From contig NZ_BAKI01000012.1 of assembly GCF_000583655.1 (NCBI RefSeq), forward strand, positions 1-59,648: a DNA stretch of 59,648 bases, read 5' to 3'. Each line of letters begins with the position of its first letter. Positions within the stretch are counted from its first letter, which is position 1. This document shows, piece after piece, positions 16,163 to 31,507 of this stretch. Source of the stretch: Lentilactobacillus farraginis DSM 18382 = JCM 14108. GTDB lineage: Bacteria > Bacillota > Bacilli > Lactobacillales > Lactobacillaceae. The position numbers were made by a program, and so were the translations under genes. The notes beneath the pieces were generated by a model. The model was not told the origin of the DNA, made no database searches, and saw only the letters and a program-made list of their open reading frames with translations.

Positions 16163-16283
16163 AATCGGCTGCTCCCCAAAATGGTTTTAAAAAACGAAGA
16201 TTGACACTTAGGTTCCATCATAAAAGATTCAAAGCAATCACTCAACCATAATTTAATTTATCCAACCACGAAAAGAGTGGGAC

Positions 16284-16383
16284 AAAAGGCGGTTAACTTC
16301 CGGAGCGTAACCGAACTATTCGAATATGCCGGGCTTGAATATTTGGATAGTTCGGTTACGAGGCAGGAAGTTAACCGCCTTTT
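16284..16383. repeat. large two-stem hairpin element (copy F, divergent)
   Basis: Outer arms AAAAGGCGGTTAACTTCC (16284-16301) and their exact complement (16366-16383) enclose inner arms starting CGTAACCGAACTAT (16306-16327; 16339-16360) that match at 20 of 22 positions. The tip contains GCCGGGCTTGA. Layout and tip resemble the 122-bp elements at 20257 and 30551-30973, though stem sequences differ. It sits in the 362-base space between ribF and pyruvate oxidase; on the minus strand it could act as a transcript end. Confidence 0.8.
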
Positions 16384-16424
16384 GGCGCACGTTTCTGCTC
16401 GGTAATAATTGTGATTATGTAAAT

Positions 16425-18873: not shown

Positions 18874-20270
18874 ATGTCAAACAAAGATGTACGCGTTGAA
18901 GAAGATACGTTGGGTCCAGTTGAAATTCCCGCAAAAGCACTATGGGGGCCACAAACCGAGAGAAGTCGAAATAACTTCCCAACCGGCCAATTCATGCCGT
19001 TGCCGATCATCAAAGCGCTGCTTCAAATTAAGAAAGCCGCTGCCCAGGCTAATGCCGAGGAAGGTGCGCTAAGCAGGATAAAAGTGATTTGATTGTCAAA
19101 GCAATTGATTCATTATTGGCATTATCTGATGAAGACCTTCGCAAGGACTTCCCGCTGAAAGTTTATCAAACTGGATCGGGAACTCAAACCAACATGAACG
19201 TTAACGAAGTTGTGGCTCACAAAGCTGCCCAAATTGATGACAGTATTGAAATCCTGCCCAATGATGATGTTAACCATGGCCAAAGCTCCAACGATATTTT
19301 TCCAACTGCAATGAACATTACGGCAAGTGAAGCCGTTCAAAAATTGGAGAAGGCAGCACAACACCTTATTGATGAATTGAAAGTTAAGCAGGAGAAGTAT
19401 TGGCGAACCGTTAAAATCGGTCGGACTCATTTACAAGACGCAACACCATTGACGTTTGGTCAAGAAGTCAGCGGTTGGGTCAGCATGGTTGAACATGATC
19501 TGGCTTACTTAAAGAGTTTGGACGCAACCCTGCTTGAATTAGCAATGGGTGGTACCGCTGTTGGAACCGGCTTGAATGCCGCACCGCATTTCGCTGATGA
19601 TATTGCGGAACGTATGAGTCAGGTATACGGTCTTAAATTTACAGCGGACACTAATAAATTTGATGGTTTGGCAGCTCATTCCGGCTTGAACGTTGTCCAC
19701 GGTGCCATGAAGACCCTGGCTGCTGATTTAATGAAGATTGCCAATGACGTTCGCTTCTTGGCAAGTGGTCCGCGTGCCGGCTACGATGAATTGAATATTC
19801 CGGCCAACGAACCGGGTTCATCAATTATGCCGGGTAAAGTTAACCCGACACAGGCAGAGGCTGTTACGATGGCCGCCGTTCGGGTAATGGGAAATGATGT
19901 GGTTGTTGATTTGGCAGCCTCGCAAGGCAACTTTGAAATGAATGTTTACAAACCGGTGCTGATTGATGCCTTCTTGGAATCAGCTGATTTGTTGGCAGGA
20001 ACCATGACCGGGTTTGCAGATAAGATGATTCACGGCTTAACGGTGAATGCCGATCGAATGACTGAATTGGTTGATAATTCATTAATGACGGTAACGGCTT
20101 TGTCACCACATATCGGCTACCATGACAGTGCCAAAATTGCCCAGGCAGCGGATAAGGCAGGCAGCACGTTGCGTGAAGCAGCTATTAAGTCAGGAAAAGT
20201 AACAGCGGAACAATTCGACGAGTGGGTGGACCCGCTGAAGATGACAAATATTGATAGTGTGCAGAGCTAA
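18874..20270 (+). pseudogene. fumC: class II fumarate hydratase (frameshifted)
   Basis: Fumarase interconverts malate and fumarate. GGAGG lies before the ATG at 18874. One C is missing near 19074; restoring it reads ALSQDKSDLIVK and gives about 465 residues. Seen are TGSGTQTNMNVNEV, HGQSSNDIFPTAMN, the catalytic-loop signature GSSIMPGKVNP and RTHLQDATP. The last four residues (SVQS) and the stop codon are encoded by the start of a repeat element (copy A). With the fumarate reductase and DASS genes that follow, it forms a malate-to-succinate branch. Confidence 0.88.
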
Positions 20271-20377
20271 CCGGGATAAACCGGAGTGTAAGGCATCGAT
20301 TTCGGAAATCCCGGGTTTGGATTTTTGAAATGGATCCCTTATATGTAGAACGTTGCTTTGAGTAGCAGTCCTAGAGT
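20257..20377 (+). repeat. 122-bp structured repeat, copy A
   Basis: Begins GTGTGCAGAGCTAACCGGG inside the fumarase 3' end and ends CAGTCCTAGAG. Inner hairpin about 20286-20344: arms differ from other copies but still pair (ATTTC with GAAAT; AAATCC with GGATTT) around CGGGTTT. The 5' flank is like copy D while the 3' flank is like copy C, so the outer stem does not pair; the copy may be a recombinant. Confidence 0.75.
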
Positions 20378-20378
20378 A

Positions 20379-20432
20379 GTGTGCGAAGCAAAGCGGTTAA
20401 TGCCCGGATTATAAGGCATTTTCAAACCGCTC
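20379..20432 (+). repeat. truncated structured repeat, copy A'
   Basis: Starts GTGTGCGAAGCAAAGCGG like the 5' flank of copies B, C and E, but lacks the inner hairpin. Instead AGCGGTT-AATGCC pairs with GGCATT and AACCGCT to make a shorter stem. It lies 46 bases before the fumarate-reductase start. Confidence 0.65.
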
Positions 20433-28024: not shown

Positions 28025-28939
28025 ATGGCAAACAATGACGAACGGTTACGACGAACAATGATGTTCGTTCCGGGAAACAATCCGGCAATGGTCAAGGATG
28101 CCGGCATTTACGGCGCCGACTCAATTATGTTCGACTTGGAAGACGCTGTTTCCATGGCTGAAAAAGACGCTGCCAGAGACTTGGTTTATGAAGCACTGCA
28201 AAGTCAAGACTACGGCGACGCGGAATTAGTTGTTCGAATTAACGGTGCCGATACGCCTTATTATGCAAATGACGTCAAAGCAATGGTTAAGGCCGGCGTT
28301 GACGTTATTCGGCTGCCAAAAACCGAAAGTGCGGGGATGATTCACGACCTTGAAAAGGATGTCTTGGCAGCAGAAAAACAGTTTGGCCGAGAGGAAGGTT
28401 CAACCCACTTGATGGCGGCCATCGAAAGTGCCAAGGGTGTTTTGAATGCACCTGAGATTGCGGCGGCTTCAGATCGGATGATTGGGATTGCATTATCTGC
28501 TGAAGACTACACAACCGACATGAAGACCCACCATTATCCGGATGGCGCGGAGTTGTCATTTGCCCGTAATATGGTGCTGCACGCGGCCAGAGCTGCCGGG
28601 ATTGCGGCGTTTGATACCGTCTTTACCAATATGGATGATACCGAAGGCTTCTATCGTGAGACCAGATACATCCACCAGCTTGGCTTTGATGGCAAGTCAT
28701 TGGTTAACCCACGACAAATTGCGATGGTTAACAAAGTTTACGAACCAACGCAAAAAGAAATTGAGAATGCCAAGAACGTAATTAACGCTATCGAGGAAGC
28801 TAAGATGAAGGGTTCCGGCGTTATCTCAATGAACGGTCAAATGGTTGATCGACCGGTTGTGATGCGGGCACAACGTGTTATGAAACTTGCCAAAGCTTCC
28901 AACCTGCTTGATGAGGAGGGTAACTACATTGAAAAATAG
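28025..28939 (+). CDS. citE: citrate lyase beta subunit (citryl-ACP lyase)
   Basis: CitE splits citryl-ACP into acetyl-ACP and oxaloacetate. The 304-residue TIM-barrel protein shows [28 protein letters not shown] (metal and substrate contacts), VRIN and [17 protein letters not shown] lies ten bases before the ATG, inside the citD end. It overlaps citF by 11 bases. Confidence 0.93.
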
Positions 28940-30467
28940 TGTAAATCGTGATTTACCAGATGATTTAATGAACAAGTTAAATTATGAAGGCTTCAAAACA
29001 ACCGATATTGGTCAGCCAACTGTTCAGCGAGTGGCACCAAAAGTCCGAGTTACAACGGGTGATGATAAAGTCGTTGATTCAATCGAAACGGTAGTTAAAA
29101 AAACGGTTCGTGACGGCATGACGATTTCATTTCATCACCACTTCCGAAACGGAGACTTTGTCTTTAACAAGGTAATGCGAATTATTATTGATGCCGGTAT
29201 CAAGAATTTAACACTGGCACCGTCTTCGCTGACCGGAGTGATGAATGATATTGTTATTGAAGCCATTAAAAAGGGCACCATTACCAATATCACCAGTTCC
29301 GGTATGCGTGGCTCGCTTGGAGACTTTGTTTCACACGGCGGCTTGAAGAATCCGGTTATTTTCCGTTCACACGGAAACCGAGCTCGAGCAATCGAACATG
29401 GTGATATTAAAATCGACGTTGCTTTTCTTGGCGTGCCAAATGCCGATAAATTGGGTAACGCCAACGGTATGGAAGGTGACGCGGTTTTTGGTTCACTGGG
29501 ATACGCCTTAATGGATGCCCAATATGCCAACAACGTGGTTTTACTGACCGATAATATTATGCCTTATCCGAATACGCCGGCTTCTATCAAACAAACGCAG
29601 GTTGACTACGTTGTTAAAGTTGATAAAGTTGGCGATCCGGATAAGATCGGTTCCGGTGCTACCCGGTTTACGAAGGATCCCAAGGAATTAAAAATCGCTT
29701 CGATGGTTAATGACGTGATTGTCAACTCGCCTTACTTCAAAGATGGCTTTTCATTCCAAACCGGTTCCGGTGGTGCAGCGCTCGCGGTTACGAGATACTT
29801 ACGTCAGGCAATGATTGACAATCAGATTAAGGCTTCCTTTGCCTTGGGCGGTATTACCAAGCCAACCACTGATTTACTGGAAGAAGGTCTGGTCCGTCGG
29901 GTAATGGACGTCCAAGACTTTGATAAAGGTGCGGCCGAGTCTATGCATCATAATCCCAACCAACAGGAAATTGACGCGTCCTGGTACGCGGATCCTGATA
30001 ATAAAGGGGCCATGGTTGATCAGTTGGACGTTGTTATCCTGAGTGCCCTTGAAATTGATACCGGCTTTAACGTTAACGTTATGACCGGTTCCGATGGGGT
30101 TATTCGGGGCGCTGTCGGTGGTCACCAAGACGCGGCAACGGCGAAGCTGACGATTATTTCGGCGCCGTTGGTTCGTGGGCGAATCGCAACGGTAGTGCCA
30201 AAGGTAACGACCAATGTCACACCGGGTGATTCTGTAGATGTTTTGGTTACTGAATATGGTATTGCCATTAATCCAAAGCGCCAGGATCTGGTCAAAGCCT
30301 TTGCGCATTTGCCGGGTGTTCCGGTTTACTCGATTGAGGAGCTGCAACAAATGGCTGAAGCAAAGGTTGGCAAGCCAAAGCCACTCGAATTTACTGACCG
30401 GACAGTTGCCCTGGTTGAGTATCGGGATGGCACCATTATCGATGCCATTCATGAAGTGAAGGATTAA
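28929..30467 (+). CDS. citF: citrate lyase alpha subunit (citrate:acetyl-ACP transferase)
   Basis: CitF exchanges acetyl for citryl on the acyl carrier subunit. A TTG start at 28929, eight bases after GAGGAGGG, gives 512 residues; the open frame reaches back to 28887 inside citE without a ribosome site. Family segments include [24 protein letters not shown] and [15 protein letters not shown]. Directly after the gene comes an array of structured repeats. Confidence 0.92.
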
Positions 30468-30550: not shown

Positions 30551-30672
30551 GTGTGCGGAGCAAAGCGGTTAGCACCCGGAGTATAAGACGTCGATCCGAG
30601 AAATCCCGGGTTTGGATTTTGCGGATCGATCTCTTATATGGAGCGGTGCTGCTTTGAGCAGCAGTCCTAGAT
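30551..30672 (+). repeat. 122-bp structured repeat, copy B
   Basis: Outer stem: CAAAGC and AGCACC pair with GGTGCT and GCTTTG. Inner hairpin 30582-30638: TATAAG, GATCCG and AAATCC pair with GGATTT, CGGATC and CTTATA around CGGGTTT. Ends CAGCAGTCCTAGA. Starts 123 bases before copy C. Confidence 0.85.
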
Positions 30673-30673
30673 A

Positions 30674-30795
30674 GTGTGCGGAACAAAGCGGTTAATGCCC
30701 AGAATATAAGGCGTGAATCTTAGAAATCCCGGGTTTGGATTTTTAAGATTTATCCCTTATATGGCGTGGCATTGCTTTGAGCAGCAGTCTTAAAA
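30674..30795 (+). repeat. 122-bp structured repeat, copy C
   Basis: Outer stem CAAAGC and AATGCC pair with GGCATT and GCTTTG; the second helix differs from copy B on both sides. Inner hairpin has AATCTTA pairing with TAAGATT where copy B has GATCCG/CGGATC. Tip identical (CCCGGGTTTGG). Confidence 0.85.
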
Positions 30796-30796
30796 A

Positions 30797-30917
30797 GTGT
30801 GCGGAGCTAACCGGGATAAACCGGAGTGTAAGGTAAGCGGCAGTGAATTCCCGGTTTTGGAATTTGGTGGCGATTGCCTTACATGCAGGTTTGTGGTTAG
30901 TGCAGCAGTCCTAGAAA
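30797..30917 (+). repeat. 122-bp structured repeat, copy D
   Basis: Outer stem CTAACC and AAACC pair with GGTTT and GGTTAG. Inner hairpin TGTAAGG pairs with CCTTACA and GAATTCC with GGAATTT, with tip CCCGGTTTTGG. Both stems differ from copies B and C yet still pair. Confidence 0.82.
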
Positions 30918-30973
30918 GTGTGCGGAGCAAAGCGGTTAGCACCCGGAATATAAGGCGTCGAATTGGAGGAATT
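30918..30973 (+). repeat. truncated structured repeat, copy E, touching citX
   Basis: 5' half only: GTGTGCGGAGCAAAGCGG through TATAAGGCGTCG, then CGAATT-GGAGG-AATTTG, a short hairpin whose loop is the citX ribosome site. No 3' half is present; citX starts at 30977. Confidence 0.7.
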
Positions 30974-30976
30974 TGT

Positions 30977-31507
30977 GTGAGTGAGATATTTAAAGTTGGT
31001 TCCGAGCAGGGAATTATGGCCATTTTGCAGTCAAAAGACGAACGAGTGGCCTACCAGCATCAACTGTTAAACGAGTATCCAACTAAAAGTATATTAGCCA
31101 TCAAATTAAATATCCCAGGGCCGATTAAAAACAATCAGTATCTAACTCGGCTGTTTAATGCCGGACTAAAGCGTTTCTTGACCCAAATCAAATCGGTGAG
31201 AATAGTTGAACAATGGCATAAGCCAACCGGCAATGAAGCCTTTGCGACTTCTGATCGTTCAGCTGACCAGATTAAAGCGGCGGCTATCCAGTTTGAAGAT
31301 GAAGACCAACTGGGCAGGCTGTTTGACATTGATGTATTCGGTCATGACAGTGCCAAGGCAATCTCGCGGAAAGAATTGGGATTTCAAGCCCGTAAGTGTT
31401 TTATTTGTGGGCGTCCGGCAAAAGAGTGTGCTCGATCCAGGCGTCATTCGGTTTCGGAGTTGCAGCGGGTTATCCAGCAAAAATATAATCAGGAATTTGG
31501 AGAATGA
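30977..31507 (+). CDS. citX: holo-citrate lyase synthase (apo-CitD phosphoribosyl-dephospho-CoA transferase)
   Basis: CitX moves the 2'-(5''-triphosphoribosyl)-3'-dephospho-CoA group to the citD serine. GTG at 30977, six bases after GGAGGA, gives 176 residues; the frame is open upstream to 30797 but that part is repeat DNA. The C-terminal GFQARKCFICGRPAKECAR is typical of the family. It is expressed after the repeat array, so possibly at a lower level than citCDEF. Confidence 0.88.
   Translation: MSEIFKVGSEQGIMAILQSKDERVAYQHQLLNEYPTKSILAIKLNIPGPIKNNQYLTRLFNAGLKRFLTQIKSVRIVEQWHKPTGNEAFATSDRSADQIKAAAIQFEDEDQLGRLFDIDVFGHDSAKAISRKELGFQARKCFICGRPAKECARSRRHSVSELQRVIQQKYNQEFGE

Follow-up and report, generated by a model that had tools for sequence, protein, structure and literature searches.

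The window analyzed here, a 59,648-nucleotide stretch of Lentilactobacillus farraginis DSM 18382 = JCM 14108 (contig NZ_BAKI01000012.1), carries on its plus strand the citrate lyase alpha subunit gene citF (28887..30467; TIGR01584, 818.1 bits; start codon uncertain) and, downstream of it, citX (30977..31507; TIGR03124, 178.8 bits). Between these two host genes lies a tandem array of plus-strand hairpin units. Three full units, copies B (30551..30669), C (30674..30792), and D (30797..30913), are followed by copy E, which is cut after about 49 nt (30918..30966) and whose end adjoins a putative citX ribosome-binding site. The plus-strand linkers between them are 4 nt long, gata (30670..30673), aaaa (30793..30796), and gaaa (30914..30917), and the first shares three bases with the end of the upstream flank (cata). 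Full units measure 117 to 119 nt, and the starts at 30551, 30674, 30797, and 30918 are spaced by 123, 123, and 121 bp, in agreement with a first-pass annotation of the sequence that had described three full copies and one truncated copy 121 to 123 bases apart. That annotation had the array run from 30551 to 30973; its start stands, but its end does not, as copy E stops at 30966.

The fixed motifs that had been read at the start, tip, and end of the unit are all present in the window copies. So are the variable helices: AGCACC/GGTGCT and GATCCG/CGGATC in copy B; AATGCC/GGCATT and AATCTTA/TAAGATT in copy C, whose stems are unlike those of B; and AAACC/GGTTT, CTAACC/GGTTAG, and GAATTCC/GGAATTT in copy D, which has the lowest profile score of the three and three broken inner pairs of the consensus structure. 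Folded as plus-strand RNA, copies B, C, and D have z-scores of -4.4, -5.9, and -4.9 (200 shuffles each). Their RNA-parameter energies are -53.9, -48.2, and -51.1 kcal/mol on the plus strand versus -46.8, -38.7, and -29.5 kcal/mol on the minus strand, and with DNA parameters the plus strand again folds better in all three full copies. Seven other genomes have citX; in the four of them that were compared, no copy of the window subtype is seen by eye between citF and citX, so a regulator specific to the citrate operon is not supported. Two of these four have other long hairpins there (by eye).

The window holds further plus-strand copies. Copy A (20257..20373) is full, with outer arms of different stem types that remain unpaired (five outer pairs broken), and is followed by copy F, cut after about 43 nt (20379..20421). 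The gene upstream of this array seems to take the stop codon of its reading frame from the element (distance -14). Copies with arms from different stem types were also seen at L035:6709-6825 and L009:1501-1619; these three are perhaps deletion products between adjacent units. A related hairpin of a GAGTG/GCACGTTTC subtype lies at about 16275..16395 (ends placed by eye; profile match 16287-16359, E 3.6e-4). This second subtype (GAGTG.../GTGTGG..., tail GCACGTTTC or GGAACACATTTCAGCTTA) coexists with the main type in the window genome, where another example lies at G000:C127:103599-103689 (in L008), and copies resembling it are common among those read from other genera. In Lentilactobacillus hilgardii, a near-perfect GAGTGC-subtype hairpin (L094:5452-5606) occupies the site of array C109:7975 of the window genome; by eye, its apical loop matches the usual loop in reverse complement, as though the inner stem had been turned around.

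Used as a blastn query, copy B matched 77 places in its own 2.84 Mb genome. A sequence profile run over stretches fetched around these places, with opposite-strand shadows removed, gave 92 copies in 45 arrays of 1 to 5 copies each, cut copies counted. Sixty-seven of the 92, chosen by the sequence profile, were full enough for alignment, and RNAalifold assigned them 42 pairs, 26 of which change on both sides. Pairing was found in 97.3% of cells, versus 83.4% with partners shuffled (0/500 shuffles reached the observed value) and at most 45.4% with partners slid by 1 to 3 columns. Forty-seven copies drawn from a wide range of genomes and genera, aligned by sequence, showed two-sided change at 37 of the 42 pairs and 90.8% of cells paired versus 62.7% shuffled (0/500) and at most 45.0% slid, values to be read knowing that these copies are high scorers of a pairing-rewarding model; likewise, the copies behind model R2 were high scorers of model R1, a choice that favors paired arms. 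The compensatory change noticed in three window copies extends through the genome and between genera, and a chance repeat or a plain terminator is rejected by the 77 blastn places together with this covariation.

The repeat is one long hairpin whose stems are largely replaced between species and genera while its loops persist. The persistent parts are mostly unpaired: a CG..TTA bulge on the 5' side and a T-rich apical loop, CGGGTTT or similar; a CGGA/GCAG internal loop is kept in many copies. Units are about 118 to 124 nt long and begin with GTG, GAG, or AAA. The ends of the hairpin differ by lineage and covary at its base, as in GTGTGC/GCAGTCC, GTGAGC/GCTGTCC, GAGTGC/GCACGTTTC, and AAAAGC/GCTAGAT.

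No family of Rfam 15 matched the window at gathering thresholds, and with E values up to 5 the sole match was a chance microRNA. Over 34 loci from relatives, 32 of them with copies, Rfam reported only T-box, lysine, and TPP elements, all away from the repeats. These riboswitches lie in array-bearing loci, at L045:1366-1456 and L192:2101-2191 (TPP, the same site, between two arrays), L076:190-436 (T-box), and L106:2092-2274 (lysine). In literature that mostly excluded subscription papers, we recognized no description of this repeat family, and the relevant text of the L. hilgardii genome paper concerns CRISPR rather than these repeats (PMC8038741). Together, the lack of an Rfam match and the two-sided changes support the proposal of the first-pass annotation that the array is a new structured RNA or hairpin-DNA element.

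We found the family to be widespread in the order. Within the genus, covariance model R1 matched 18 of 24 genomes, with 1 to at least 150 matches each (opposite-strand shadows included). A covariance-model search of relatives, as the first-pass annotation had advised, recovered the repeat in 80/301 genomes and 19/40 genera of the family. At order level, R1 matched 25/395 genomes, and the broader model R2 matched 114/390 Lactobacillales genomes in 34/80 genera and seven family labels. One genome of the family labeled f3 has 49 matches, some in tandem. A draw of 249 genomes across Bacillota gave a match in the window's own genome only; among the genomes listed for that draw are one other member of Lactobacillales and seven others of the class. 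Filters are stricter in the large draws, which may therefore overlook weak copies. An exact tandem-junction pattern occurred in 59 stretches, 24 of which belong to Lentilactobacillus (L. hilgardii, raoultii, rapi, dabitei, fungorum, and parabuchneri); the other 35 were taken as chance.

A single divergent copy is carried on plasmids. It occurs on 77 plasmid records, 74 of which cover at least 80% of the copy, including 14 from Pediococcus, 11 from Lactiplantibacillus, and 16 from Listeria; a search that included flanking DNA reached 90 records. The copy lies antisense in a copper-resistance operon (L136-L143) shared by many Lactobacillales genera and Listeria, with genes that are presumably copY-like and copB-like, and among the matches listed no annotated feature lies beneath it. 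Eight single high-scoring copies in other genomes are accordingly not independent insertions: they are this one plasmid-borne copper-operon copy, which is hitch-hiking. Searches of phages and plasmids with the window array, and of plasmids with an f3-family copy and its flanks, gave no match.

Covariation alone does not prove selection, because palindrome-templated repair could also match the two arms of a hairpin. We therefore considered which strand is kept. Were the double-stranded palindrome all that counted, the plus strand should show as many A-C as G-U oppositions. Outside four mostly fixed G-U pairs, the window genome has 73 G-U versus 16 A-C (59 versus 16 by distinct local context); L. 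raoultii has 60:12 and L. fungorum 142:63 outside their own fixed pairs, and the cross-genus set, all pairs counted, has 120 versus 35. The strand count for genome G005 takes in loosely aligned columns. The excess in three species indicates that the folded plus strand is favored, and it holds in L. fungorum even though 19 of 21 arrays there face an opposite-strand gene at their 5' end. Selection for the fold, as the first-pass annotation had argued from compensatory change, thus gains an argument beyond covariation, one that also picks the plus strand. Because G-T is the better mismatch in DNA as well, the bias does not separate RNA from single-stranded DNA.

These counts also bear on the idea that the fold is under no selection at all and that old repeats have been homogenized by gene conversion and palindrome-templated repair. 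In its favor, the same stem types turn up in varying combinations, some copies have arms that do not match (window 20257, L035:6709, L009:1501), and the outer helices of the cross-genus set are nearly all Watson-Crick (635/658 cells over 14 pairs of columns 10-27). Repair offers no reason, however, for a one-strand excess of G-U over A-C or for retaining unpaired bulges and fixed G-U pairs (two to four), and it leaves the exact junction and the species-specific positions described below unexplained. We regard it as improbable.

We examined the upstream junction in those arrays whose first unit is clear and that have one linker or more: 32/45 in the window genome, 22/22 in L. raoultii, and 20/21 in L. 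fungorum. An A immediately precedes the first unit in 31/32, 22/22, and 20/20 of these, respectively, and the sequence ahead of this A is A/T-rich. The end of the flank is also partly echoed in the first linker. The mean suffix match between the two was 2.12 at the same locus versus 1.33 between loci in the window genome (p<0.0002), 2.09 versus 1.38 in L. raoultii (p=0.0004), and 2.80 versus 1.69 in L. fungorum (p=0.0008), and flank/linker identity over 7 bases gave p values of 0.007, 0.008, and 0.09. With the last linker, the suffix effect is kept in the window genome (p 0.001) and lost in L. raoultii (0.23) and L. fungorum (0.12). The echo is partial, with at least 4 bases matching in 7/32, 4/22, and 5/20 arrays, respectively; matches of at least 6 bases occur in 4/32 arrays of the window genome versus 0.22 expected, in 1/22 of L. 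raoultii versus 0.10 (p 0.09), and in 1/20 of L. fungorum versus 0.34 (p 0.30). Identical linker pairs within an array make up 32%, 27%, and 27%, versus 7%, 5%, and 5% at random. To judge from the sequences, the linker echo looks like a short, decaying target-site duplication, clearest in the window genome.

Sites in relatives, compared by eye with those of the window genome, are empty or contain no more than part of a copy, or else they carry different units. At one of them (C86:14346 versus L133), a partial copy apparently ends at the same base in L. hilgardii and the window genome, and full units are present in L. hilgardii only. With the fixed A|G junction at their 5' end, the partial linker echo, and the species-specific positions described below, the arrays look inserted. 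An ordinary route would be that of a MITE, moved in trans by the transposase of a DDE insertion sequence, and the 4- to 7-nt echo at some loci, reminiscent of target duplication, and the many copies, largely between genes, would fit such an element. The ends of the unit, however, do not form a terminal inverted repeat (GTG-TGC versus TAGGAC-TGC), and the 25 largest gene groups beside arrays include no transposase. We give this reading a very low probability.

The arrays are largely intergenic, and where they start depends on the species. Downstream of a same-strand gene, the array starts no more than 5 nt from the stop codon, or before it, in 18/26 cases in the window genome (1.6 expected), 9/10 in L. 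raoultii (0.3 expected), and 2/2 in L. fungorum, counts that would also include gene-end insertions, since some reading frames run into the element. In six arrays at distance -1, the stop codon is TA plus the first G of the element. Where an L. fungorum array faces a gene on the opposite strand, it starts 18 to 25 nt from the start codon of that gene in 16 of 19 cases (1.2 expected), just outside the Shine-Dalgarno sequence; this distance is not favored in the window genome (1/14) or in L. raoultii (1/12). Expected counts assume uniform placement within the same gap, with genes called by a simple script of our own. The L. fungorum flank that ends at the junction is often like CCTCCTAAAATAA, which is near the unit's own tail, GTCCTAAAATAA.

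Could the hairpins instead be functional RNAs, transcribed from the plus strand to serve the cell as a binding platform or as an mRNA end or spacer, with mobility secondary? The bias of G-U over A-C on the plus strand, folding far better than that of shuffled sequences, loops kept across genera, and stems that are unlike between neighbors in two of three species, as if each hairpin had to fold on itself, all speak for such a role. The surroundings of the arrays argue otherwise. Orientation to the flanking genes is mixed: the 45 arrays of the window genome comprise 19 ++, 9 --, 7 +-, 5 -+, and 5 with one side unknown. In L. fungorum, the plus-strand bias remains although 19/21 arrays face an opposite-strand gene. 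The citF-citX gap is without the window subtype in the four genomes compared by eye, and the number of matches ranges from 0 to at least 150 within one genus (opposite-strand shadows included). As for the conserved gene context of a structured cis-regulatory RNA, none was found in the loci compared, where sites differ between species. We consider a primary role as a functional RNA unlikely, if the least improbable of the rival explanations weighed here.

Comparison of units within and between arrays revealed likeness at the ends and unlikeness in the stems. Units of one array resemble each other in columns 1-9 more than units of different arrays do (0, 1, and 13 of 2,000 permutations reached the observed value in the three species); at the 3' end this holds in the window genome only (1 of 2,000). 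The outer helix is less alike within arrays in the window genome (0.527 versus 0.613; 1,996 and 1,997 of 2,000 permutations reached the observed value for its two arms), as is the inner helix in L. fungorum (2,000 and 1,999 of 2,000); in L. raoultii the dissimilarity fails, the loop excepted. The likeness of array ends speaks against insertion in one respect, as it is not what one would predict if a foreign unit were simply inserted. By a simple pattern, a further unit start follows the array in 19/22 cases in L. raoultii and in 4/21 in L. fungorum. No opposite-strand neighbor within 60 nt was seen in the window-genome copy list, and the single orientation within arrays is partly by construction, since grouping required the same strand.

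Several of these features would follow from retroposition, in which the 3' tail of a minus-strand RNA pairs with an A-rich target and primes cDNA synthesis, and template jumps yield tandem units that differ from one another, with a cut last unit. The fixed 5' junction, the 3'-cut last copy in the window and L. raoultii arrays, the differing stems within one array, the L. fungorum target resembling the unit tail, and the short flank echo are all in keeping with it. Against it, however, 17/21 L. fungorum arrays have no further unit start after the last full unit (simple pattern), the selected strand is the plus strand and not the presumed template strand, and the reverse transcriptase domain RVT_1, present in 8 of 24 genomes of the genus, is missing from the window's genome and from the repeat-rich G001, G004, G005, and G008. 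We hold retroposition to be a poor prospect, and a resident reverse transcriptase is not needed given its lack in the window's genome.

Other candidate enzymes fared similarly. The first-pass annotation had suggested looking for linkage to RAYT/IS200-type transposases. None emerged: just 7 of the 24 genus genomes carry Y1_Tnp, which is missing from all five of the repeat-rich genomes G001, G005, G006, G008, and G016 (62 to at least 150 repeat matches each), so such a mover is not supported. No integron integrase (TIGR02249) scored over the cut-off in the 24 genomes, and on this ground integron attC sites are rejected; weaker TIGR02249 matches occur in 23/24 of them and likewise in 14/14 control genomes. 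When open frames from the fetched loci were compared all against all, with the array loci and those from the tandem-junction pattern scan pooled, the largest gene group was an ABC ATPase family (20 loci), followed by small groups; the top 25 contained no transposase. The repeat thus does not require its host genome to encode a Y1 transposase (IS200/RAYT type), a reverse transcriptase, or an integron integrase. Since none of the candidates matches, including array-adjacent transposases, the mover may have been lost, be carried elsewhere, or be a common host enzyme. In one complete genome, 33 of 51 arrays run with the presumed leading strand versus 66% of long open frames (by length), which makes replication strand uninformative about single-stranded DNA transposition; GC skew was the sole basis for placing the origin, and the first 12 kb gave no match to the DnaA pattern.

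On balance, we favor, by slightly better than an even chance, the explanation that the array belongs to a Lactobacillales-wide, non-autonomous mobile repeat copied as a folded plus strand by an enzyme acting in trans. We lean toward this strand being single-stranded DNA rather than RNA. The enzyme would read the loops and the base of the hairpin and not the stem sequence. It would join the unit 3' of an A/T-rich site, which in one species resembles the unit tail TCCTAAAATAA. As every unit has a target-like site of this kind at its end, we propose that the next unit lands alongside and that arrays grow in this way. Neighbors with like stems may be lost by recombination or be disfavored through pairing with each other. 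More tentatively, and with a probability clearly short of even, the repeat could represent a distinct, order-wide class of mobile element. Elements of this class would move as a folded single strand recognized only by its loops and hairpin base. They would be guided to tail-like sites, which in one species lie next to Shine-Dalgarno sequences and in others next to stop codons, and would stack in tandem. The enzyme serving them would belong to none of three kinds: Y1 transposases, integron integrases, or resident reverse transcriptases.

This structured repeat, with dozens of copies in many genomes under seven Lactobacillales family labels, is uncatalogued in Rfam. It raises testable questions about which enzyme handles the hairpins, how a mobile unit can retain its fold as its sequence is discarded, and why the repeat sits before ribosome-binding sites in one species and at stop codons in another. 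Arrays between co-directional genes, such as citF and citX, may bear on gene expression, and the repeat may bear on genome assembly and annotation.

How does the repeat compare with known systems? In the accounts available to us, integron attC sites are folded single-strand recombination sites recognized by structure, as we propose for the lactobacillar repeat. VCR (attC) arrays are of similar length to the lactobacillar units, and the attC stem-loop plan differs from theirs. Unlike attC arrays, the lactobacillar units have no cassettes between them, and their genomes have no integrase over the cut-off in the 24 searched. The BOX, RUP, and Efa-1 repeats of lactic cocci are likewise described as intergenic, structured, and present in many copies in Lactobacillales. 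Efa-1 of Enterococcus faecalis, given as size 163 with 65 (18) copies, is a pair of adjacent stem-loops (PMC2267715), whereas the lactobacillar repeat is a single long hairpin, a contrast drawn from descriptions alone and compatible with a distant relationship. REP elements are described as 20- to 40-bp palindromes with a GTAG or CGTC tag; they are often clustered, and RAYTs are proposed to move GTAG REPs by acting on them as single-stranded hairpins (PMC3733652). The lactobacillar repeat is similarly palindromic, clustered, and present in many copies; unlike REPs as described there, its unit is about 120 nt long with GTG, GAG, or AAA ends, and Y1_Tnp is missing from 17 of 24 genus genomes. 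The repeat thus fails the tested defining features of both REP/RAYT systems and attC sites. The bcr1 group of Bacillus cereus (bcr1-bcr3) is reported to be intergenic and MITE-like, with tens of copies per genome, often in UTRs or gaps within operons, and with a TTTAT motif and a proposed mechanism like site-specific recombination; according to the reports, the first bcr element is confined to the B. cereus group (PMC6542083, PMC3446304). The lactobacillar repeat shares the intergenic location, the tens of copies per genome, and the features of a mobile element, and is set apart, by descriptions rather than by sequences, in being order-wide and tandem and in keeping its loops while changing its stems. 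Within the literature at hand, its closest known kinds are the bcr1-type repeats and the REP/RAYT systems.
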